The notes under the pieces were generated by a model. That model made no database searches, was not told where the DNA came from, and saw nothing but the letters and a program-made list of their open reading frames with translations. A stretch of 64,000 nt of DNA from a virus, in IMG/VR virus record IMGVR_UViG_3300027836_000009, positions 28,114 to 92,113 of that record; one strand, written 5' to 3'. Both the position numbers and the translations under genes were made by a program. Below, piece by piece: positions 1 to 63,996 of this stretch (position 1 is the first letter of the stretch; every line of letters starts with the position of its first letter).

Positions 1-1065
1 GAGAAAAAGAAATCTATCGTGTCTCCTGCTTTTATTGAAAATTTATCAAAAAAGGTTTCATATGTAGTTAAATCTGAAGAAGGCATTCAAAAACTTAAAG
101 CAAATGCTCAAGAAGCATGGGTTTCTTTTAGATTAGGAACAGTATTAGATACAATACGCAAAAATAAACTTACATTGCCTATTGTTTTTCAAAAAGATCC
201 AAATCGCCCAGCAACTGATAAAGCAATATCTGACGCAGCAGACGCTCACACAAAAGCTGAATTTGCATCAGCAGGAATTGGTGATAGACGTGGAAATTGG
301 GAAAGCAATTTAATTAAAGGCATTGATGACGGCCAGAAAATTTTTAATGGCTGGTGGGAAAAATCTTATTTGCCTACATTAGCATCTGTGCAGAAAGATG
401 TATTATTAACAACCGTTTTAGAAGCTACTCAAGATCATCGTGAAGTACAAGAATCTTTAAGGGATGTTTTTCAAAATGATCCTGATTTTTTAAAGTGGCT
501 TATTTATGAAGCCGCAACAGGGCAAGTAAAATTTAGCGGAAATGTCAATATTGATTCATCCACTGGTGTTACAGCAATTGCTGATAAGTTTTTGATATTT
601 AATGATACTGGACTTGCTGAGCCTATTGCACCAATTACTATTGGATGGGCTAAGGATCATATTAAAGAAGTTAAAACAACGGTAGGGTTTAAGTCATCAG
701 GAAGTAGGTCAGCTTCATCTATAAGATTAGCGATAGGTGGTAAATTAGACGAAAGTGAATCTCTTCAATTATCAGGCATGGAAAGAATAATTTTTGAAGA
801 ATTTAATAAACTAAATAATGATTTATTAGCATTAAATGAATCCTTTATTGATTCTTTTAAGAAAACACTTAATAACGTAAAAACTTTTGCGGCTCAAACT
901 TGGACTGCTGTGACAAACGCAATTTCTTATTTTTATCAAAATATAATAGTAAGAATTTCTAAAGCATTTACAGATGTATTCAGTCAAGGAATTGATGCTA
1001 TATGTAGTTTTTTTGGTTTTACAATAGACGGAGCAGTTGACGGAGAAATTAACATAAGTTTTTAA
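1..1065 (+). CDS. C-terminal part of an unknown protein (5' truncated by window edge)
   Basis: The frame is open from base 1, so the true start most likely lies outside the window; a GTG at 19 is the first possible internal start. About 355 residues are visible. I do not recognise the family. The last 70 residues are amphipathic and rich in Phe, Ala and Ile (around AQTWTAVTNAISYFYQNIIV), which could be a membrane-active or coiled segment. The rest is mixed helical and charged. A baseplate/tail operon follows about 3 kb downstream, so this could be the end of a large virion protein such as a tape measure, but nothing in the sequence proves that. It is followed by a strong terminator, which suggests it ends a transcription unit. 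Confidence 0.6.
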   Translation, partial: EKKKSIVSPAFIENLSKKVSYVVKSEEGIQKLKANAQEAWVSFRLGTVLDTIRKNKLTLPIVFQKDPNRPATDKAISDAADAHTKAEFASAGIGDRRGNWESNLIKGIDDGQKIFNGWWEKSYLPTLASVQKDVLLTTVLEATQDHREVQESLRDVFQNDPDFLKWLIYEAATGQVKFSGNVNIDSSTGVTAIADKFLIFNDTGLAEPIAPITIGWAKDHIKEVKTTVGFKSSGSRSASSIRLAIGGKLDESESLQLSGMERIIFEEFNKLNNDLLALNESFIDSFKKTLNNVKTFAAQTWTAVTNAISYFYQNIIVRISKAFTDVFSQGIDAICSFFGFTIDGAVDGEINISF

Positions 1066-14827: not shown

Positions 14828-15196
14828 ATGAAGTACATTAAAAAATTTGAAGATTATGTTGCTTCTTATAAAGACAGCAATCTTCAAAATGATGACGAGG
14901 AACAATTCAAAAAAGCTGCAAAAGTAACAACTAACGAAAGTGGTTTTGTTATTGAATATAATGATGATAAAGTTACAATTGAAAGCGGTCTTGATGAAGG
15001 TAATGAAGAAGTTCCTGTAGATGAAATTGCTGAAGCACTAAAAAAACTTGGCGCTGAAACTGTTACTTTTGAAAATGAAGATGGTGAAACTGAATCTCAT
15101 CCAGTTAATGAGTTTTTAAGAAAATTGAATCCGCTTCGTTGGAAATTATCAAAGAAACATAGGTCAATTGCTGGTGCAATAAAAGACGACGAATAA
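14828..15196 (+). CDS. Acidic small protein with capsid-targeting-like N-terminus (122 aa)
   Basis: It begins MKYIKKFEDYVASYKD, similar in outline to the MK-x-aromatic-x-E-F starts at 55996, 62687 and 63085, though this is the weakest match and has no clear cleavage site. The middle is acidic with a beta pattern (VIEYNDDKVTIESG) and the C-terminal 25 residues are basic (NPLRWKLSKKHRS). Not recognised otherwise. A perfect 10-bp inverted repeat (14846-14855 with 14879-14888) lies just inside the gene. It starts two bases after the amidoligase-like gene. Confidence 0.6.
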   Translation: MKYIKKFEDYVASYKDSNLQNDDEEQFKKAAKVTTNESGFVIEYNDDKVTIESGLDEGNEEVPVDEIAEALKKLGAETVTFENEDGETESHPVNEFLRKLNPLRWKLSKKHRSIAGAIKDDE

Positions 15197-44698: not shown

Positions 44699-47600
44699 AT
44701 GTTAACACTTAAGCAATTACTTGAAAGTGATAGCTTGGCTACGATAGTTGCCAAACTAAACCAAAACTTACAAGTTATATCAAATTCAAACGGAGGTCCA
44801 CAAGGTATTCGCGGTCCACAAGGTATTCCTGGATTGCCGGGTAAAATAGGCCCATTAGGTCCAACTGGAGCTGTTGGCCCAACAGGTACTATTTTAGGGA
44901 TTGTTCCTTTTGCTGAAACACTTTACGATAGCAGCATAGCAGGTCCTCTTTTTGATAATTTTCCTCCTTATGGAAAGATAGGTCCTTGGCCTATATCTTC
45001 GTTAACATGGCTAGAAGCATATCATACGCCAGCAGCAGCTGGTGAAATATACCTAGATCATCGAAATAATGGATACTGGAAGTATTTAACAGCACCTGAT
45101 GTAGATGGCGCAGCTTATCCTGGAAATACCACTGGTAACCCATATCAATATGCAGCAAATTTATCTTTTGTATATCCACATCTCGGTGATGGATCTAATC
45201 CACCTACACCAGACCCAGGATTTTATGCAGGGCCAGGGTGGTATTTTTATCCTGTTCAAGATTCTGCGTCTTTAGGTATAGGGCAAGTATGGGTTGAAGA
45301 TTATAGTACATACACAATTAAAAATTTAGGAAGCACAGGCCCTTACGCTCAAGGACCTACTGGTACTATGGGTGCAGGTAATTTAAAAATACCAAATGCA
45401 AGACTTGTAACAAAATATGGAACTGTTTGGATAACATCAGGGAATGACGCATCAGCATCAGCAAATGATGGAACATTAAAAACTTCTTTAATAGGGAAGT
45501 GGGGCGAAGGGCCAGGATTGGATAATTCTCAGCCAGGAAGATATAGCTCAGGCGTTGATCGTTTATTCTTTAAAATGAGTATAGACGGTTTATCATTTTA
45601 TAATAATGTTGCTGCTAGAGGATACACAGGACCTGCTACAATGTTATCTGGTCTTACTGAACCAAATCTTTTAGAATCTAATGAATTCCCAATTAATAAA
45701 GATCTCGTACAGTATAGTAGCGCGTCTGACCAATTTTGGGTAAAACCTCAGTATGAAGTTTCGATTGACCAATATACTCCTTTATTATTCTTATCACATA
45801 GAAATGACGAAGATGATCAGACTAAAGGTACATACGGTACATTGGGTATTTATATGTTTACTGACGTTGCAGATGATGGACAAACAGAAGGCTTGTACCC
45901 ACAACCAACTGAACCTTATGGCCATGGTGATTTAAACTATAATAATGTATCAAAAACTTTACATTTATTTACATCAAGATACGCTCCAGATCCGTTAATA
46001 ACTTGGGATCCTGTAAATGCTCCATTAAGTAGCAATCAAACTGTAAACTACGGCGAAATGATTCTTGACTTTAGAAGAGTCATTGCATCAAATCAATACG
46101 TTTGTTCTTTACCAACTGATATGAAATTATCAAGTGACCATAGAACAGGTGCAAACGGAAATTATGTTGAATCATTAGGAAGCTCATCGCTTAGATATAG
46201 AACATATCAAGGATTCGTTTCAGCAATTAATGGTAAATCATTAACAGGTAATGGTTTAACTCCATACCAATGGGAATATGGTTTAGGCGATGGTGTTCCT
46301 TATGGCGCAACTGCAGGTAACCACGATACCACGTCAGGCACTGATGGCATGTTAACACGTCGTACTTGGTACGGAACATCTGTATTATCAGAATCACAAT
46401 TTAATACAATAGCGCCTGGCACTAATGATTATATCAGAAATGCTGGTATGTTAGAACGTGGCCGTAGATTTACAACAACTACAGCATCAGGTGGTGGCTC
46501 AGGAGCTACAGGATCATACTTTTTATCGGAATTAGTTTTTTATACTTCACAATTTAAAGTTAATGGAGCAACTGCAAGTTCACCAATTAATGATACTGAT
46601 AAAGACCCTCAAAACAATGAGCATAACAGTTTACCTTCATTATATGTTTCACCTTTTAGAAATATAGGTATAGGTACATTCGTTGGAGCTACAGGTGGAA
46701 GCGATTTAGGACCTCTTGAACCTTCCGCTAAAATGCATGTTCATGTTAAAGAAAATTTAAGAGATTCAGATCCAACGTTTACGTATTTTGCTAATACAGC
46801 AGGAACAAATGCTTTTGCTACATTACCAACAAAAGTTTTTGCTGCAGCTGCATTTAGCGGTCAAGTTGTTAACTCTAATAGACAAGCATTAACTGATATC
46901 TTATTAGGTAACATTGTTACAACAACTGATGAAAAAGTTATTCCTACTGGTAATGTTGTAAATCAAGTAACAGTTGATAAATTTAGAAACGCTGTTCGTA
47001 CTGAATCTTGGAGAAACTCTACAGTAAGTTCAATGCACTTAGGAGCACAACCTTATGCTATGAATGTAACAATTGGTAGAAATGGTGTTGAGGCGTATCG
47101 TAAAGAATTCCAAATTACTTTAGCTCCTTTAAATATTTCTGCAAACACAGCAACAGGATTTGCTGCAAACACAGGTGTAGGTATTCATAACTTATATCCA
47201 AGAGCAAGATTTCATATGTATGGTAAAAATACATATAATGAAACAGAATTTGGTCAAGAACTATGGACTCCTGGTTATACAATTGCTGGAAGTACTTCAC
47301 CAGGATTAGGCATTAATTATCCTTTTTATGGTACAGCTGCGACAAACACAAATTCAGCAAATCAAGTTGCTATTGATTATTTAGGAAGTACATATAATTA
47401 TCCTGTAGGTATTTATGAATACCAATATTATGTGTTTAACGTAAGTTCATTGGCTAACTTAGGTAGTCCTACATTAACATCGCAATATTCAGCAAATGCT
47501 GCTGTTTATCCTAACCGTGATTCTATTACACCAACAAGAAACGCTGTTCCTTATGGTGGTGTTTTTAATGCAAACTTTGCGTTTCCATTTACATCACCCT

Positions 47601-50600
47601 CTACTGTATTAAATAATTCATATAAACATGGGGGGACAGGAAATGCTTTCTGGGATCCGCAATCATATATAGGGTTTAACTTATACAGAGATTTGTCATC
47701 CGCAAATGGCGGAGCAAGTACAGGTCAAAACACAACAGGTGATAACCAAGATAACACGAGATGGATCTTAGGTACACAAGGAGCAACAGCTGTTGGACAT
47801 GGTAATAATGGTGGAGCTGCAATTATAAGTAGTTCACATGGGGAATTAGGTATTATTACAATTCCTAGAGGACGTGATGGAGGCCGTGCTTATGAACAAT
47901 GGGAACAGAGAGGATTAGGAACACGTGATGTTCTTAGTCATATGAAAATTGTGTTTGATAAAAACGGTAACATTGCTGTAGGTAATGCTGCTGGTTGGGA
48001 TCTTGATGCTTACCCATCGTTGGATCTTAACATTAACACAGGATACATCAATTACTTGCCATTGTCAAATGCTGATGCGGTTGGTCCTGTAAGTGCATTA
48101 AATGCTACAAGTTCACGTAATAGATATGGAAATGTATTGTATGCTGGTTATAATGAAACATCTTCTATAAGTACAGCCGCATTAATTAATAAAAAAGCAA
48201 CAAATTCCGAATATGTTCGTTTAGAAGTTGCAGCTGAAAAGGCTTGGTCTAGAGATGGTCGTTTAATTCAAAAGAAAGGTTTTGGTTACCCACCGAATTC
48301 AACAATCACAATCACAGGCGCTGCTTTATCAAATTACATTAGAACAGACTTCAATTTCTTACCATACACACCTACCATTTTAAATTGGGTATTAGTAACA
48401 GATAATGAAGGCCGTATTACAACAAGTAGAATAACATATAATGTATCGCCTACCCCATTAAATATATGGCTCAGTAGTCCAGTAACAAGCTCAAATTATA
48501 TTGCAGTTGTTTACCCACACCCTACTGAATTTAACGCAACTGGCCCTTTAGCAAATTTAATATCAATTTCTTATATTGCACCCGCGGGAGCAATAGCTGC
48601 TGAATGGGCAGGATTAAATGATATGCCTTCGGATTTTGGCCCAACTATATACACAGGAAATAACGCAGGTGGAGGCAATTTGTTTACACAAATCTATATA
48701 GATCCAGTATTAACAATCGATTTAAGAGGTAGCGCAAATGTTCGTTTAAATAACTTTGTTTACGGAGAAGGCTTTGGTTTTAGCGGTGGTAATAACATGA
48801 ACACTTTTGATGATCTTACAAAAGTTTATGTTCAAATGCAAAGACAAAACTCGCCAAAACTTATATTATCATTTTTAGAAAAAACTCCAAACGCTGCAAG
48901 ACCACAAACAGGTGTTTCTCCATATAAGAAAGTTAATACTGTTATTCAATCTGCGCAAAATGAAGTATCATTAAGAGAATATTGGATTCCTAAAACTGAT
49001 AACACAGGCGGTACATTTATGGTATTCACTGATCATTTTGGTAAAAAAGAAAAAGATAATCTTTTCCAAGATACTCCAATATACTCAGGTACGGTTACTA
49101 CTGGCGGCACAGCTCGAAGAGCAGGACTGCATTTAGAAGAAGTTGTTACACAAGAATTTCTTGGTGGATATACAGGAATAGACGCAACCGTAATTACATC
49201 ACCATTAATAGGAAATAGCGATTTCTTAAATAATATAGATGGCCGACCAATTAATATGTCGCCTGGATATGTAAGATATTACAATAGAAGTTTTAATACT
49301 CCTAATGTGCCTTCAGTGTTTACTGGAACGCAGTATGGACAAATAATAGCAAATAACCCACCTGCGCCACCAGAAATAAGCACGGGCTCAAATACCTTTA
49401 CAACAACAGGCGCTACAGTACAAACGTCACCAAAAAATACTTTTGCTTGGCACGCAACGGCGGTACAAAATAGTGGTCCGTGGGAATTTGAAATTGCTGG
49501 AGGTGGCAGTACCACAGCCTTCGGTATGCAAGGTGTTGTTCAGCAATGTGATACTGATAGTGACAATTGTAATTATGGAAGAGACAACCGTCCGCTCTTT
49601 ACTTGGTTCAACTTACCTGAATTCACACCTTGCACAGCAAGAACCGTTGATGTTGTTGAAGTAAATGGCGGTGGTCCTTCGGGTTCGCAAGGCGCTAACT
49701 GGTATAATAGCTCTACTAAACAAATCAGATTACCTGCGGGAAATTATGAATTTGAGGTAGCGTCAAGCTATTTATGTTCAGGCACACCATATCCAACTGG
49801 TTTAAGTTCGGGTCAGTATAGCAGAGGTAATAATGGTAAAACAGTTGAGCTGTTTATGACTTATGGAACGCCGTTCACTGAATTTGAATATATTGCCAGT
49901 TCTGTGCAACACGGCTGTGGCACTGTTGCGAATGGCCCAAATGAACAACGTTTAACTTGGCCAGGTCCTTTTCCTAATCCTGAAACTGGTGGTACGGTAA
50001 CCAAAACATTTTCACAACTTTTTACGTCTGCACAAGACATTGATTTATTATATCGATTTGGTGGTAATGTTATTCATGGTTGTTCCTGTTGCACCGGTAA
50101 TACGCAATCAACAAATAGCGTTGAGTCGTATTGGAACATAAAAATACGTTCCCTTGACGCAGCTTGTTCAACTGAACCAACTCCTGGCATAATGTATCTT
50201 AACCCAAGTAATTCACAGCCATCCGGTGCGCTTGATACTAGATTTTCTACACCAGACGCCGAAGCTTTTATTTGCCCTTCACACTCAGCTATAAATGTGG
50301 CTGATACGAATCCTACAAATATAGGTACGCTTTCAGGCTCAGCCGCAAGTGTGACACAAGCTAATAATCCTGCTGTATCCGATAACTACTTTGTTAGGAT
50401 CAGTCAAACACCAATAGTAGGTGATTACGAGGGTGTAAAAATTGGAATAAACTTTTTAGCTAAAACGCCAAACGGCAAACCATATTATGATTCTCAAAAT
50501 AGAGATCTTGTATTAAGATTTATGAATGCGTGGACTGGAGGCGTTAATGGAACAGAAGATAACCCCGCATGTACAGGATCTGGTGTGACAGACTACAGCC

Positions 50601-52258
50601 CATGTAGTTTTTCTAAAAATGCATCAGGTTTATACACAGGGTCACAATTAAATAACGTTAATTATCCAGAGGCTGTTGTTTATGCGGTTATGCCAGGCTC
50701 TGCTGTGCCAGGCGCAACAGCAGGCGTTAGTAGATACCAATACGGCGGGTATGCTGAACTTTACTTCCCTAAAGATTTATGGGAACAAAATTTTATACAG
50801 CCTACCAACCAAAATGATATGTATTTGTGTGGTGCATTTTTAAGAAAAGGCTCTGATTACCCGCCAACTCCAGATCCAAATATAATGAACTCTAATAATT
50901 TTTTTGTAGCCATAGAGAGTTCTCAAGATGCTTGGGAAGTTGAAAGATTACAAATGACATTTGAAGTATTACGCGGGTCTGCAAGCGCAACAACTCCAAT
51001 AAACACATCTACAGCAACTTCGCCTGGTTTAACTGGAGCAAATCGAGTTTCTGTAAGAAGAAACATTGATCATTTCTATGAATTATTTACGCCTAATACA
51101 AATTATGATAATGGGTGGAATACATTAAGTGAATCTACTCCTTTACAAAATCCAGCGACAGCAATTAGAATGAAACGAATAAATTCTGAATTTGCTCTTG
51201 TAGATTTTAACATTACGGTAAAAGCTAATAATCCTTGGATAGGGAATCAGAGTAATGCAGCTAAAAGTTTAGTTGATTTAGGTACTCCTAGGTTTACACA
51301 GTATTTAAGATTTACATATACACCGGATGAAGCATTTTGGTCTGAATCTGAATATGATTTAGGTATTGCGCAAAATCTTTACGGTAACGGAATGTGGCTA
51401 AGCAATTGGAGTTCATATAAAAACTGGTACCCAGGTACAGCAATTGTTGGTGACGATGTAAATAATACACAATATACTGCATCACAAGCTTCAATAGGAA
51501 ATAGGGCAAGATATCAGCCTGGCACCGGAATAGGCCCAGGATCTAATTTATTAAATGTTACTAGTGACTGGAGCCCTAGTTTTTATGACAATGGACTTAC
51601 TCAATATGTAAATCCACAAAACAATCAACCTTTTGTTAGAAGTTGGAATGGAAACATATTAGAAACTTTAGCGTTTCATGCACGATATCGTTGGCAAGAA
51701 ATGGCTGTTTTAAGAGGATCTATAAATTTTGGAATATTAACAGATCCGTTATTAAACACAACCAACACATTCGGAATTGCTAATGATTCTCCTGGTGATT
51801 CTGTATTTTCAGCATTTGGGCAAAGCGATAATTCATTAAGAAATGCTAGACTGTTATTTAATTACGCTGAAATATCTAACCTTAATATTGGTACATATGC
51901 ACAAAGGGAAGAGCTACAGCAAAAACAAACCGCATTTGTTGGTTATCTTGGTGCAATGTATGCACTATGGGGGAATCAAGCATTTGAACGAAATACTAAT
52001 GTACAGTGGAGAATATCCCCTACGCAAAATTTTGCTACGGATGCAGATATACAGCAACAGCCATACACTGAAAACACAGGGTTTAATTTAGAAGTACAGT
52101 TCTCTAAACCTATATTACATACGGATACTCCATTAGGTGCTTCATACTATGGGTTGCCATCAGGTACTTACCCACAGCAAATGATTGTTCAGCCTTATAG
52201 ATATTTAACAGTAAGTGGACAAGCTATCGTACGATATGCAAGAACTAAGAACCAATAG
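44699..52258 (+). CDS. Giant tail fibre with collagen-like and Cys-rich regions (2519 aa)
   Basis: Residues about 31-66 are collagen-like Gly-x-y repeats (GPQGIRGPQGIPGLPGKIGP), common in phage fibre trimers. The body contains degenerate repeats of the Bacteroidota-type pattern GIGT..P..LHV: IGIGTFVG then SAKMHVHVK; TGVGIHNLYPRARFHMYG; and a third around GNIAVGN...YPSLDL. A Cys-rich island occupies about residues 1614-1825 (HGCSCCTG, CDTDSDNCNYG) with a C1q/TNF-like look (IRLPAGNYEFEVASS). The protein most likely binds the host surface. There is no S74 chaperone signature that I can see. It is the last of the fibre block. Confidence 0.75.
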   Translation: MLTLKQLLESDSLATIVAKLNQNLQVISNSNGGPQGIRGPQGIPGLPGKIGPLGPTGAVGPTGTILGIVPFAETLYDSSIAGPLFDNFPPYGKIGPWPISSLTWLEAYHTPAAAGEIYLDHRNNGYWKYLTAPDVDGAAYPGNTTGNPYQYAANLSFVYPHLGDGSNPPTPDPGFYAGPGWYFYPVQDSASLGIGQVWVEDYSTYTIKNLGSTGPYAQGPTGTMGAGNLKIPNARLVTKYGTVWITSGNDASASANDGTLKTSLIGKWGEGPGLDNSQPGRYSSGVDRLFFKMSIDGLSFYNNVAARGYTGPATMLSGLTEPNLLESNEFPINKDLVQYSSASDQFWVKPQYEVSIDQYTPLLFLSHRNDEDDQTKGTYGTLGIYMFTDVADDGQTEGLYPQPTEPYGHGDLNYNNVSKTLHLFTSRYAPDPLITWDPVNAPLSSNQTVNYGEMILDFRRVIASNQYVCSLPTDMKLSSDHRTGANGNYVESLGSSSLRYRTYQGFVSAINGKSLTGNGLTPYQWEYGLGDGVPYGATAGNHDTTSGTDGMLTRRTWYGTSVLSESQFNTIAPGTNDYIRNAGMLERGRRFTTTTASGGGSGATGSYFLSELVFYTSQFKVNGATASSPINDTDKDPQNNEHNSLPSLYVSPFRNIGIGTFVGATGGSDLGPLEPSAKMHVHVKENLRDSDPTFTYFANTAGTNAFATLPTKVFAAAAFSGQVVNSNRQALTDILLGNIVTTTDEKVIPTGNVVNQVTVDKFRNAVRTESWRNSTVSSMHLGAQPYAMNVTIGRNGVEAYRKEFQITLAPLNISANTATGFAANTGVGIHNLYPRARFHMYGKNTYNETEFGQELWTPGYTIAGSTSPGLGINYPFYGTAATNTNSANQVAIDYLGSTYNYPVGIYEYQYYVFNVSSLANLGSPTLTSQYSANAAVYPNRDSITPTRNAVPYGGVFNANFAFPFTSPSTVLNNSYKHGGTGNAFWDPQSYIGFNLYRDLSSANGGASTGQNTTGDNQDNTRWILGTQGATAVGHGNNGGAAIISSSHGELGIITIPRGRDGGRAYEQWEQRGLGTRDVLSHMKIVFDKNGNIAVGNAAGWDLDAYPSLDLNINTGYINYLPLSNADAVGPVSALNATSSRNRYGNVLYAGYNETSSISTAALINKKATNSEYVRLEVAAEKAWSRDGRLIQKKGFGYPPNSTITITGAALSNYIRTDFNFLPYTPTILNWVLVTDNEGRITTSRITYNVSPTPLNIWLSSPVTSSNYIAVVYPHPTEFNATGPLANLISISYIAPAGAIAAEWAGLNDMPSDFGPTIYTGNNAGGGNLFTQIYIDPVLTIDLRGSANVRLNNFVYGEGFGFSGGNNMNTFDDLTKVYVQMQRQNSPKLILSFLEKTPNAARPQTGVSPYKKVNTVIQSAQNEVSLREYWIPKTDNTGGTFMVFTDHFGKKEKDNLFQDTPIYSGTVTTGGTARRAGLHLEEVVTQEFLGGYTGIDATVITSPLIGNSDFLNNIDGRPINMSPGYVRYYNRSFNTPNVPSVFTGTQYGQIIANNPPAPPEISTGSNTFTTTGATVQTSPKNTFAWHATAVQNSGPWEFEIAGGGSTTAFGMQGVVQQCDTDSDNCNYGRDNRPLFTWFNLPEFTPCTARTVDVVEVNGGGPSGSQGANWYNSSTKQIRLPAGNYEFEVASSYLCSGTPYPTGLSSGQYSRGNNGKTVELFMTYGTPFTEFEYIASSVQHGCGTVANGPNEQRLTWPGPFPNPETGGTVTKTFSQLFTSAQDIDLLYRFGGNVIHGCSCCTGNTQSTNSVESYWNIKIRSLDAACSTEPTPGIMYLNPSNSQPSGALDTRFSTPDAEAFICPSHSAINVADTNPTNIGTLSGSAASVTQANNPAVSDNYFVRISQTPIVGDYEGVKIGINFLAKTPNGKPYYDSQNRDLVLRFMNAWTGGVNGTEDNPACTGSGVTDYSPCSFSKNASGLYTGSQLNNVNYPEAVVYAVMPGSAVPGATAGVSRYQYGGYAELYFPKDLWEQNFIQPTNQNDMYLCGAFLRKGSDYPPTPDPNIMNSNNFFVAIESSQDAWEVERLQMTFEVLRGSASATTPINTSTATSPGLTGANRVSVRRNIDHFYELFTPNTNYDNGWNTLSESTPLQNPATAIRMKRINSEFALVDFNITVKANNPWIGNQSNAAKSLVDLGTPRFTQYLRFTYTPDEAFWSESEYDLGIAQNLYGNGMWLSNWSSYKNWYPGTAIVGDDVNNTQYTASQASIGNRARYQPGTGIGPGSNLLNVTSDWSPSFYDNGLTQYVNPQNNQPFVRSWNGNILETLAFHARYRWQEMAVLRGSINFGILTDPLLNTTNTFGIANDSPGDSVFSAFGQSDNSLRNARLLFNYAEISNLNIGTYAQREELQQKQTAFVGYLGAMYALWGNQAFERNTNVQWRISPTQNFATDADIQQQPYTENTGFNLEVQFSKPILHTDTPLGASYYGLPSGTYPQQMIVQPYRYLTVSGQAIVRYARTKNQ

Positions 52259-61113: not shown

Positions 61114-62646
61114 ATGGAAGTGAAAGCAAGAGTAACGCCAGATAACAGATTCTTACAGATAACTGAATGCTCAGAAATAGAACTTGAACAAATAAGATTT
61201 TCATTTAAGAAAAGAATTACTAATTGGAGATTCCACCCACTTGTAAAAAAGAAAATCTGGGATGGCTATATTGCATTTATTGATAAGTACAACAGAATAC
61301 CTGTTGGTCTTTGGAATGAATTAAACGAAACTTGTAAAAAATACGGATTTGACTTACAAGTTGAAGGATTCGGCAATGTTATAGATGAAGAATTTGATGA
61401 AGAAGATTTTCGTCAATGGGTTACTGAGTTTTTTACCGATCATCCAAAAATAGTACCACGTGATTATCAAGTTGACGCATGTATTCCGATTCTTAAATAC
61501 CGTAGAAGTATTAGTGAAATTGCTACATCAGCAGGAAAGACATTAATCATATTTATGATTTTTGGTTATTTACAAAATCGTAAAGGTGCTGGTAAGTTCT
61601 TAATGATTGTTCCTAACACTAACTTAATCTTACAAACTGTTGAAGATTTTGAACTTTACAATAATGATAAGTTAAGATACCAAACTCAAATGTTACATGG
61701 TGGAACTGACAAAGCAAAAAAGAGTGTTGACTTCGCAATAGGTACTTATCAAACACTTGTGAAACAAGCTCCAGAATACTTTGACGATATTGATACTGTT
61801 TGTGTTGATGAAGCTCACCATACTCAAGCAAGTTCAATCAAAAAGATTCTTGTTAACTGTATTAACTCCAGATATGCTTTTGGTTTATCAGGAACCATGT
61901 TACAAAATGGAAGTACTGAAGCAATCACAGTTCAAGCTTACTTAGGACCACTTGTAAATAACATTAGTGCTTCTTTCTTAACAGCAAATAAATTCGCAAC
62001 TCCAATTATCGTTAAAGTTGTTGAAATGGACTATCTTGAATCTGAAGCTCGTGACAAACTGGAAGAACTCCGTAGTCGTAAAGCTGAAATTGAAGGATCT
62101 AAATTATTGGATCTTGAAAGAAGATTAGTTATAGATAACCGTTCAAGATTTCTTTTTGTTTGTGACTTTATTTGTCGCTCAACTAAAAACTCACTTGTTC
62201 TTTTCCAAAATGTAAAAGACGGATACGGAAAAAGGATTTATGATTATATCCGAGAAAAAACAAATGATAAAGTTGTCTTTTATGTAGACGGAAGCACATC
62301 ACCAGATTTACGTGATGATTATATTCACCGTATGGAAGAAGGTGAAGACAAAATAATGGTTGCATCATTTGGTACATTCAGTACAGGTATCTCAATTAAC
62401 AACATTCATAATGTTTACTTTGTTGAATCTTATAAGTCTGAAAAAATCATTCGTCAATCAATTGGTCGTGGAATGAGATTATTTGAAGGCAAGGAAAGAA
62501 CAACTATCATAGATTTCGTTGATGATTTTTCAACAAGCAAGTCAAGTAAAAATGGAAAAAACTATTTAATGAAACATGCGGAAGCAAGAATTCAAATCTA
62601 TCAAGAACAAGGATTCCCATACAAGAAATATAAGGTAAAATTTTAG
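61114..62646 (+). CDS. uvsW: UvsW-like DNA helicase (510 aa)
   Basis: Superfamily 2 helicase for branch migration, R-loop and fork regression. ATSAGKT near residues 136-142 (Walker A), VCVDEAHH near 230-237 (DEAH-type Walker B), SGT near residue 260 and RQSIGRGMR near 447-455 (motif VI) are all present. The N-terminus (TECSEIELEQIRFSFKKRIT) is the DNA-binding domain seen in T4 UvsW (587 aa). An in-frame TTG at 61087 would overlap the nuclease gene, so the ATG at 61114 is preferred. Confidence 0.9.
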   Translation: MEVKARVTPDNRFLQITECSEIELEQIRFSFKKRITNWRFHPLVKKKIWDGYIAFIDKYNRIPVGLWNELNETCKKYGFDLQVEGFGNVIDEEFDEEDFRQWVTEFFTDHPKIVPRDYQVDACIPILKYRRSISEIATSAGKTLIIFMIFGYLQNRKGAGKFLMIVPNTNLILQTVEDFELYNNDKLRYQTQMLHGGTDKAKKSVDFAIGTYQTLVKQAPEYFDDIDTVCVDEAHHTQASSIKKILVNCINSRYAFGLSGTMLQNGSTEAITVQAYLGPLVNNISASFLTANKFATPIIVKVVEMDYLESEARDKLEELRSRKAEIEGSKLLDLERRLVIDNRSRFLFVCDFICRSTKNSLVLFQNVKDGYGKRIYDYIREKTNDKVVFYVDGSTSPDLRDDYIHRMEEGEDKIMVASFGTFSTGISINNIHNVYFVESYKSEKIIRQSIGRGMRLFEGKERTTIIDFVDDFSTSKSSKNGKNYLMKHAEARIQIYQEQGFPYKKYKVKF

Positions 62647-62686: not shown

Positions 62687-63058
62687 ATGAAGAACTATTC
62701 AGAATTTATTACTGAAGGTAAAAAAGGTCCAACTCCAGCAGGTAATGTTATTACACCTACCAATGCAGGAGCTATGAAGTCAACAATCAACACTACTGAT
62801 GAAACGTCAGAAGCATTGAGAAGAAATCTTCTAGACAAATTTTATACAAAGCTCGAGAATGACGAGGACAAAGACGCAGTTAATAAATGCGTCTCTACAG
62901 TAGTTTATTGTCTGAGCAAAAATATGCGAGTTGATAGTGACATAATTGAGCTTCTTGCGAAAAAAACAGGTAAAGAGAAAAAAGATGTTGTAAAAACTAT
63001 TGAAGATGAAACAAATAGTTATTACGGCGGTGCTGATAATCTTTACGGAAGAAAATAG
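62687..63058 (+). CDS. Putative internal head protein with capsid-targeting signal (123 aa)
   Basis: The N-terminus MKNYSEFITEGKK matches the T4 internal-protein signal MKTYQEFIAEA at seven of the first ten positions, and the cleavage context I-T-E|G fits the prohead protease rule (L/I-x-E before A/G). In T4 such proteins enter the capsid core, are cleaved and are injected with DNA. The remainder is helical and charged (DNLYGRK end), with no recognised domain. Located after UvsW behind a TATATA element, next to a second protein with a similar start. Confidence 0.65.
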   Translation: MKNYSEFITEGKKGPTPAGNVITPTNAGAMKSTINTTDETSEALRRNLLDKFYTKLENDEDKDAVNKCVSTVVYCLSKNMRVDSDIIELLAKKTGKEKKDVVKTIEDETNSYYGGADNLYGRK

Positions 63059-63084
63059 TATTAAAAATAAAATCATAATATAAC

Positions 63085-63996
63085 ATGAAAAAGTTTACAG
63101 AATGGGTAGGAGCAATTCGCGAAGCTGAGGAAAAACAGATGTCAGAATTACAAAAATCCTATAAAGATTACTTTGGAGCAAAGCTTAATAAATTTAACGC
63201 AAAATCTCCAGCTGATTTAACAGAAGAACAAAAGAAAGAGTTCTTTAACGAAATCAAAAAAGATTGGGAAATAGGAACTGGCGCAAAACCTGCGGGTAAG
63301 AAAGATGTTGAAGAACATGGTGTTAAAGAATCAGAAGAGTTTGATATGAGTGAAGGAGTTTTTTATAGACTTCCTAGAAAAATGATTCAAGATGAATTGT
63401 GGTTGACTACAAAAAATTTACAAAACTTCTTTAATAATGCATCAGCTGGTACTGATGTTGACCCAGGAGTTCTTGACACAATTATTAAAAGTTTAGGAAA
63501 TGCTAAAAAGGAATTAAAAAAATTCACTAACGTTGAAGATGTTAAAGGTTCTGTTTACGAATCTAAAGAAGTTAAAGAATCTTTAAATGAAGGTGGCCAA
63601 GAAGAACAAGTAAAGAAAGAATGTATTACTAAACTTTCTCAATTTTTCGGGGTAAATCCAGGTAACTTATCTAAATTTAATTTTGACGGTAAAGATAATA
63701 TCAAAGAACTTACTAAAGCTCTTGGATCTACATCAGATGAAGGTACTGAACATATTTACAGAGTTGCTGTTACGGTGGCAAAAAGTAATTTGGGTGTTAA
63801 AGAATCTGAAGAAGTTAATGAAGCAGAAGTAAAAAATGCTAAAGACTTTGAAGAATATGCTATGGCTATTCTAAAAAAACAACACGGTGATGATTTTGAC
63901 GAAGCTAAAGCTAAAAAAACAGTTAGTGGTTTAACTGCAGCTGCTGAGAAAGATGGTGACTGGGGCGCTGCTGTTGGAAAATTACAAAACGCATAA
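63085..63996 (+). CDS. Putative capsid-targeted / prohead core protein (303 aa)
   Basis: Begins MKKFTEWVGAIREAEEK: MK, aromatic, E, aromatic, then I-R-E|A, which fits the prohead protease rule. Further L-N-E|G (in ESLNEGGQE, about residue 168) and V-N-E|A (about 249) sites suggest cleavage into several pieces. The chain is helical and Lys/Glu-rich like head core proteins. The C-terminal 50 residues (EYAMAILKKQHGDDFDEAKA and on to the end) recall a short module of T4-like phage proteins. The last three bases of the window (ATG at 63998) start the next gene. Confidence 0.6.
   Translation: MKKFTEWVGAIREAEEKQMSELQKSYKDYFGAKLNKFNAKSPADLTEEQKKEFFNEIKKDWEIGTGAKPAGKKDVEEHGVKESEEFDMSEGVFYRLPRKMIQDELWLTTKNLQNFFNNASAGTDVDPGVLDTIIKSLGNAKKELKKFTNVEDVKGSVYESKEVKESLNEGGQEEQVKKECITKLSQFFGVNPGNLSKFNFDGKDNIKELTKALGSTSDEGTEHIYRVAVTVAKSNLGVKESEEVNEAEVKNAKDFEEYAMAILKKQHGDDFDEAKAKKTVSGLTAAAEKDGDWGAAVGKLQNA

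Follow-up and report, generated by a model that had tools for sequence, protein, structure and literature searches.

The window analysed here, the rightmost 64,000 nucleotides of a virus contig of 92,113 bases (IMG/VR record IMGVR_UViG_3300027836_000009), closes with two genes, ORF1 and ORF2, which are the final two genes of the contig and lie behind a UvsW-like helicase. Both very probably encode internal-head cargo of a T4-like phage, in which an N-terminal tag would mimic the scaffold, a gp21-like protease would cut the protein and the product would be injected, with ORF2 forming a chain of several modules. There is strong sequence evidence that the two tags serve as an address label sending proteins into the virus head. 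Both genes exist as the original prediction had described them, coordinates and starts included (an arrow marks a predicted cut):

62687..63058, plus strand: ORF1, putative tagged cargo of 123 amino acids, beginning MKNYSEFITEG; its family is kept as the first gene after uvsW
62687..62716, plus strand: capsid-targeting tag of ORF1, MKNYSEFITE, predicted cut after Glu10 (E↓G); 19.1 bits with a scaffold-repeat matrix
63085..63996, plus strand: ORF2, putative tagged, polyprotein-like cargo of 303 amino acids, beginning MKKFTEWVGAIREAEE; kept just after ORF1
63085..63123, plus strand: tag of ORF2, MKKFTEWVGAIRE, predicted cut after Glu13 (E↓A); 10.3 bits with the same matrix
61117..62646, plus strand: UvsW-like helicase, upstream of the tagged island both here and in relatives

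In the T4 capsid-targeting signal (CTS) mutagenesis has shown that residues 4 and 7 govern targeting and that residues 8 and 10 govern processing (PMC9026906). The ORF1 tag is identical to the T4 signal MKTYQEFIAE at 7 of 10 positions, as had been claimed (M, K, Y4, E6, F7, I8 and E10; T4 IpII and IpIII sequences from AF158101), and keeps all four of the mapped positions. Aromatic residues occupy the two targeting positions in both proteins, Y4/F7 in ORF1 and F4/W7 in ORF2. The processing context predicted for the pair is also valid, being I8-T-E10↓G in ORF1 and I11-R-E13↓A in ORF2. Within the ORF1 family (7 homologues) M1, F7 and E10 are invariant, followed by an unconserved spacer and then the body. 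The ORF2 tag is looser, most homologues keeping F4 and a later I/L/V-x-E, and lies nearer to that of T4 IpI (MKTFKEFTSTTTPVSTITE↓A, cut further downstream) than to those of IpII and IpIII.

The head genes of related phages allowed the tag to be compared with a scaffold. A PF03420 prohead protease was found in relatives G002, G003, G007, G008 and G009, and in G003 it adjoins the major capsid protein gp23 (PF07068). The gp21-like protease that the original prediction looked for downstream is thus present in relatives; on the contig itself, which ends there, none was found. Protease and scaffold make up one polypeptide in G003 (L013:10509-12242), in G007 (L125) and at 80 further loci (L023-L102), where the protease-fused region carries 9-11 tandem [YFH]xx[YH][LIV]xE repeats, almost always exactly 14 residues apart. 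G007 is the closest relative with head genes; its uvsW is 72% identical, and it has homologues of both ORFs together with the repeat-bearing protease fusion. A matrix trained on 40 unique repeat heptads and on no tags ranks ORF1 first (19.1 bits) and ORF2 ninth (10.3 bits) among the 88 N-termini of the contig, 10 of which score at least 8 bits against 0.54 expected. Applied to T4, it places IPIII and IPII at the top of all 251 N-termini, and its best site in gp23, FGSFLTE at residues 59-65, is the end of the 65-residue propeptide that gp21 removes (PMC9958956). The T4 total at 8 bits is 3 against 2.8 expected, with IpI and Alt undetected, so in T4 the matrix works by ranking and not by count. 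Since a matrix made from scaffold only ranks ORF1, IPII and IPIII top, the tag resembles a single scaffold repeat. A tagged gene of G002 also stands between portal and protease, the place held in T4 by genes 67 and 68.

Comparison strongly supports the capsid targeting and Glu-directed processing proposed at the outset, whereas the restriction to two adjacent genes proved too narrow, the tag being phage-wide and ORF2 polyprotein-like. About 15 proteins on the 92-kb contig carry the tag, as do 25-35 in close relatives, and unrelated genes of the contig have tag-like starts (for example MKYIKTFEAYLNE, MKNLQTYQEFLNE and MKNIHTFEEFLNE). A strict pattern, aromatic-x-x-aromatic-aliphatic-x-E near the protein start, occurs at 9 of 88 gene starts on the contig and at 2 of 400 internal methionines (P ~8e-10); two related contigs have it at 8 of 98 and 8 of 159 starts. 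Counted from first ATGs, the contig gives 9 against 0.69 in shuffled N-termini, a number reached in 0 of 1000 shuffles, and five genomes give 9, 8, 8, 18 and 19 against shuffled means of 0.7 to 1.9. The residue after the predicted cut (P1') is A, G or S in 40 of 62 tags, compared with a background of 18% (P=4e-16). At the level of DNA, at least 119 viral stretches contain the pattern of the commonest tag form, and 257 Gb of prokaryote genomes yielded a single match. That sole match among 84,980 species genomes lies on L266 (RECS01000123.1), a 98.5-kb contig from a Saprospirales metagenome-assembled genome; the contig may be that of a phage assigned to the genome bin of its host.

The loci examined hold 398 different strictly tagged proteins. 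Those of at least 80 amino acids form about 158 families by single linkage, 111 of them singletons, and among 96 representatives alignment is confined to the N-terminus. The sets behind the counts of 398, 158 and 96, and behind the 419 tags used below, were chosen by the motif itself, so that conservation of its defining residues there is no evidence; P2, P1' and the diversity of the bodies are. No tags were seen in the portions searched of Tenacibaculum phage PTm1 and Flavobacterium phage MaF61, and Vibrio phage Va1 has several look-alike starts (for example MKFKEYLNE) with a matrix count of 6 against 4.0 expected, which is not significant. Va1, from Vibrio alginolyticus, is the nearest cultured candidate for a carrier of the tag, though not a firm one.

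Behind uvsW lies a conserved tagged island, which ORF1 and ORF2 open as its first two genes. In L107-L116 up to 15 consecutive tagged genes follow uvsW, usually with homologues of ORF1 and ORF2 as the first two. A pattern scan of IMG/VR for direct relatives of ORF1 confirmed none, and its relatives were recovered by their synteny behind uvsW.

Taken together, the T4 CTS spacing, the scaffold-repeat core, the bias of P1' towards A, G and S and the gp21-like protease of G007, the nearest relative to have head genes, support the capsid-targeting reading. From them we infer a mechanism in which the N-terminal tag would imitate one prohead-scaffold unit and bring the protein into the core by co-assembly. 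Cutting after the Glu of the tag, by a gp21-like prohead protease, would leave mature cargo in the head, which would then be injected into the host along with the DNA. ORF2 would comprise several small cargo modules in one chain, its linkers being cut by the same kind of protease. When ORF2 was cut in silico at [LIVM]-x-E↓[AGS], four modules joined by short Glu-rich linkers were obtained (pLDDT, predicted local distance difference test):

63124..63330, plus strand: module A (SELQKSYKDYF...FFNEIKKDW), PHROG 28651
63331..63354, plus strand: linker A/B, SEEFDMSE, predicted cuts VKE↓S and MSE↓G; low pLDDT at 63-101
63355..63561, plus strand: module B (GVFYRLPRK...), a separate tagged gene in L107 and L109
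63562..63591, plus strand: linker B/C, SKEVKESLNE, predicted cuts VYE↓S, VKE↓S and LNE↓G; low pLDDT at 148-173
63592..63804, plus strand: module C (GGQEEQVKKECITKLSQFFGV), 61-68% identical in polyproteins of L003 and L005
63805..63822, plus strand: linker C/D, SEEVNE, predicted cuts VKE↓S and VNE↓A; low pLDDT at 230-244
63823..63993, plus strand: module D (AEVKNAKDFEEYAMAILKK), found in other orders in L107, L109, L113, L116, L117 and L004; confident helices

The modules are shuffled among relatives. Module A occurs alone in L108, G006 and G007, is followed by D in L109 and is preceded by D in L116, where a copy of it stands; it is also a stand-alone protein in Vibrio phage Va1. The Va1 protein (Va1_209, L007:2992-3177, 61 amino acids) consists of a tag and module A, and its annotation as 'DNA ligase 1' looks wrong. 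In Pseudomonas phage Illi-2 (L006:5250-6683) module A lies inside an untagged 477-amino-acid protein between portal and head protease, a position that suggests a role associated with the prohead core. The ASVQVAG module comes after SVNE↓ or EVNE↓ when it is part of a polyprotein, and after the tags MKHIQNFDSFIGE↓ and MNYTKSFETFVAE↓ when it is encoded by a single gene; its homology begins at the residue after the Glu, as does that of two further modules. Of 111 ends of ungapped alignments, 38 fall no more than 4 residues from a predicted linker (10% expected, P=3e-12); an earlier version of this test, in which scaffold proteins and gapped alignments had been kept, showed 27% against 10%, a weaker signal than that of the cleaned version (34% against 10%). 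On the contig, linkers occur at a density of 2.66 per 1000 amino acids in tagged proteins and 0.04 in untagged ones.

At the final cut of the 117 linkers, V, L or I at P3 and A, G or S at P1' are fixed by construction. Asn at P2 was not a selection criterion, and is found in 62 of the 117 linkers and in 284 of 419 tags. Few linkers have an aromatic residue at P4 (9% of the 117) or at P7 (8%), and the presence of the aromatic pair in tags and scaffold would separate cutting from docking. The linkers have the cleavage part alone, [VLI]-x-E↓[AGS], and lack the docking pair; on maturation the chain would thus come apart into separate proteins. In 24 of 419 tags a linker follows directly (MKHIQTFESFLNE↓SILNE↓A; L236, L160 and L208), so tag and linker can be stacked. 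The AlphaFold2 model of ORF2, whose mean confidence is low (57.6), has low confidence at the tag and all three linkers, and has helical bodies; in that of ORF1, residues 1-37 are disordered and residues 38-113 form a helical core. A Pfam search of ORF2 found no known domain in the modules and no processing domain of the metallopeptidase type.

Several features weigh against these proposals. P2 is mostly A, G or S in the scaffold repeats and mostly N in tags and linkers, and T4 gp22 has no tandem repeats. The protease and scaffold of this phage are absent from the contig, which is incomplete and without head genes. The second aromatic of ORF2 is not conserved in its family, W7 being replaced by S or A in some homologues. 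Some tags have K, Q, L, V or T at P1', and cleavage may therefore not be universal. Finally, internal linkers are few in G006 and G007, and tagged proteins of G006 show no enrichment of the linker motif (P=0.36); polyproteins are therefore not a feature of every genome.

It is possible to read the tag as a prohead-protease site and nothing else, with the proteins entering the core through their own bodies and the likeness to the scaffold reflecting shared cut sites, given that aliphatic-x-Glu is common to scaffold, tags, T4 gp23 and linkers. We consider this improbable, because the aromatic pair is found in tags and scaffold repeats and in only 8-9% of linker sites (although the pair was part of the rule by which tags were selected), because T4 mutagenesis assigns targeting to residues 4 and 7 and processing to 8 and 10 (PMC9026906), and because the tag is common to about 158 body families that are unrelated to one another. 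The clustering of tagged genes in islands could instead point to N-termini shared through gene duplication, or through a conserved translation-start element, and not through selection on the peptide. However, synonymous codons vary freely at the conserved tag residues and the spacer before the core varies in length. With the roughly 158 body families, the 111 singletons and the 96 representatives that align only at the N-terminus, the codon variation largely refutes this explanation, which we find hardly credible. A destination other than the head, such as the tail, the membrane or a replication compartment, would make the protease-like context incidental; one tagged protein does have weak matches to tape-measure-like coiled coils. 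The match to a proven T4 CTS and to the gp23 cut site, the scaffold resemblance, the preference for A, G or S at P1' and the position of a tagged G002 gene between portal and protease make such a destination very unlikely.

There is some chance, if a minor one, that ORF2 is an ordinary multidomain protein with a real tag, whose internal Glu sites are flexible linkers that stay uncut. The linkers are predicted to be disordered, as any linker would be. Yet their consensus is that of the tag cut site, including the Asn at P2 that lay outside tag selection, and modules start right after the Glu behind either a tag or a linker. The concentration of alignment ends at linkers, and the contrast in linker density between tagged and untagged proteins, likewise favour a chain of modules that would be cut apart in the prohead.

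The suggestion that ORF1 and ORF2 are anti-defence effectors found no support: there is no PADLOC or known anti-restriction match and no fold match for ORF1, and the cargo that can be recognised consists mostly of enzymes. Neither protein has a convincing PADLOC, Pfam or fold match to IPI or to a known anti-defence protein, although such proteins can be unrecognisable, and fold searches with both models returned nothing at E below 0.001. A PADLOC match to DpdE (E=0.005 over 63 residues) was treated as chance. Most cargo in the group has no recognisable identity. The remainder is mostly enzymes and includes nucleotidylyltransferases of the nicotinamide mononucleotide (NMN) adenylyltransferase type, ferritin-like proteins, RimK-type and other ATP-grasp ligases, PAP2 phosphatases and a YkuD-type protein. 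Tagged NMN adenylyltransferase-like, ferritin-like and ATP-grasp proteins are encoded at L114:11750-12328, L111:14206-14775 and L016:8507-9454 and are candidate injected host-takeover enzymes. Enzymes of this kind that supply nicotinamide adenine dinucleotide (NAD) or modify host proteins would be in keeping with host takeover, and NAD-depleting defences could be opposed by an NMN adenylyltransferase among the cargo. The second largest of the cargo families seen, of about 430 amino acids, is tagged (GGAYGHLSHPFED...EKTDGQN; L114:10426-11745 and homologues) and has no Pfam match; its KTDG stretch recalls the nucleotidyl-transfer motif of ligases.

Further proteins in the window carry the tag or resemble it:

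1..1065, plus strand: 3' part of a tagged protein that starts upstream of the window (MSLLNYQKFILNEV, contig 27388)
3942..4193, minus strand: tagged 83-amino-acid protein, MSTVKSYNEYVQDMNEE; 12.7 bits; a look-alike gene lies in G007 at 88650
14828..15196, plus strand: weakly tagged 122-amino-acid protein, MKYIKKFEDYVASY; 6.8 bits
55996..56331, plus strand: 111-amino-acid protein, MKTFKEFKYTG...HLNE↓A, IpI-like in its aromatic pair and distant putative cut

The last of these has a weak glycine-zipper match at its C-terminus and positional counterparts in L116, G002 and G006. Elsewhere in the window, a predicted tail protein of 2519 amino acids (44699-52258) opens with a collagen-like GPQGIRGPQGIPG stretch. 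Outside the window, genes at the left end of the contig (G000:C1:1-15000) encode what appear, as judged by eye, to be glycosyltransferase-type, nucleotidyltransferase-type, transaldolase-like and cytosine-methyltransferase-like proteins. The sheath-like protein of the contig resembles those of phages mostly of Bacteroidota.

With moderate confidence we picture a group of T4-like phages that uses one address code, copied from the scaffold, to deliver a large protein repertoire that is rapidly reshuffled, with polyproteins cut inside the capsid and effectors added by insertion of modules between cleavable linkers. A ten-residue signal known from three T4 proteins would thereby become a readable code that predicts virion-borne proteins of uncultivated T4-like phages from sequence. 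Resemblance to a scaffold repeat offers a possible docking mechanism for the T4 CTS, a point left open in the T4 papers cited, and cargo polyproteins that mature in the capsid are suggested. Searches of the open-access literature, with subscription journals lying mostly outside them, turned up no account of cargo polyproteins or of a CTS that mimics the scaffold. The tag could help to find injected host-takeover proteins and to package reporters.

Parallels exist in several known systems. In phiKZ and SPN3US head proteins are cleaved after Glu (A-x-E) by a gp21-type protease; unlike the proteins described here, in the parts of these accounts available to us they mostly have longer propeptides and share no short tag across many cargoes, and cargo polyproteins are not reported (PMC5694885, PMC10052503). 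The N-terminal signal of P1 DarB suffices to send a reporter to the head (PMC9024508). P1 is not reported to use the tag motif. Polyvalent proteins of phages and plasmids are multidomain and are proposed to be injected with the DNA and processed proteolytically (Iyer et al. 2017; PMC5512222). ORF2 has four modules in one polypeptide, none of them with a known domain. The cutting of polyvalent proteins is proposed to depend mainly on built-in metallopeptidase domains, with no tag (PMC5512222), whereas here small modules led by a CTS are joined by sites like those of a prohead protease. The closest comparison is with T4 itself, where the CTS is sufficient to package a foreign protein (PMC9026906). 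The tags agree with the CTS of IPI, IPII and IPIII in length, N-terminal position, aromatic residues at 4 and 7, an aliphatic at 8 and Glu at 10 (PMC9026906, PMC9958956), and ORF2 resembles IPI in that its predicted cut lies further downstream. As for the T4 internal proteins, a gp21-like protease is present, in relatives of the contig; the GELDHP and SSRA regions of this PF03420 protease align to the T4 gp21 structure 5jbl, and the gene order portal-protease-scaffold-major capsid protein is also that of T4. T4 has few internal proteins and keeps gp21 and gp22 separate; beside that separation, the fusion in relatives is unusual. In the group described here, by contrast, dozens of tagged cargo types occur per genome, cargo is chained into what appear to be polyproteins, and relatives fuse protease and scaffold into one polypeptide with 9-11 tandem, tag-like repeats of 14 amino acids.
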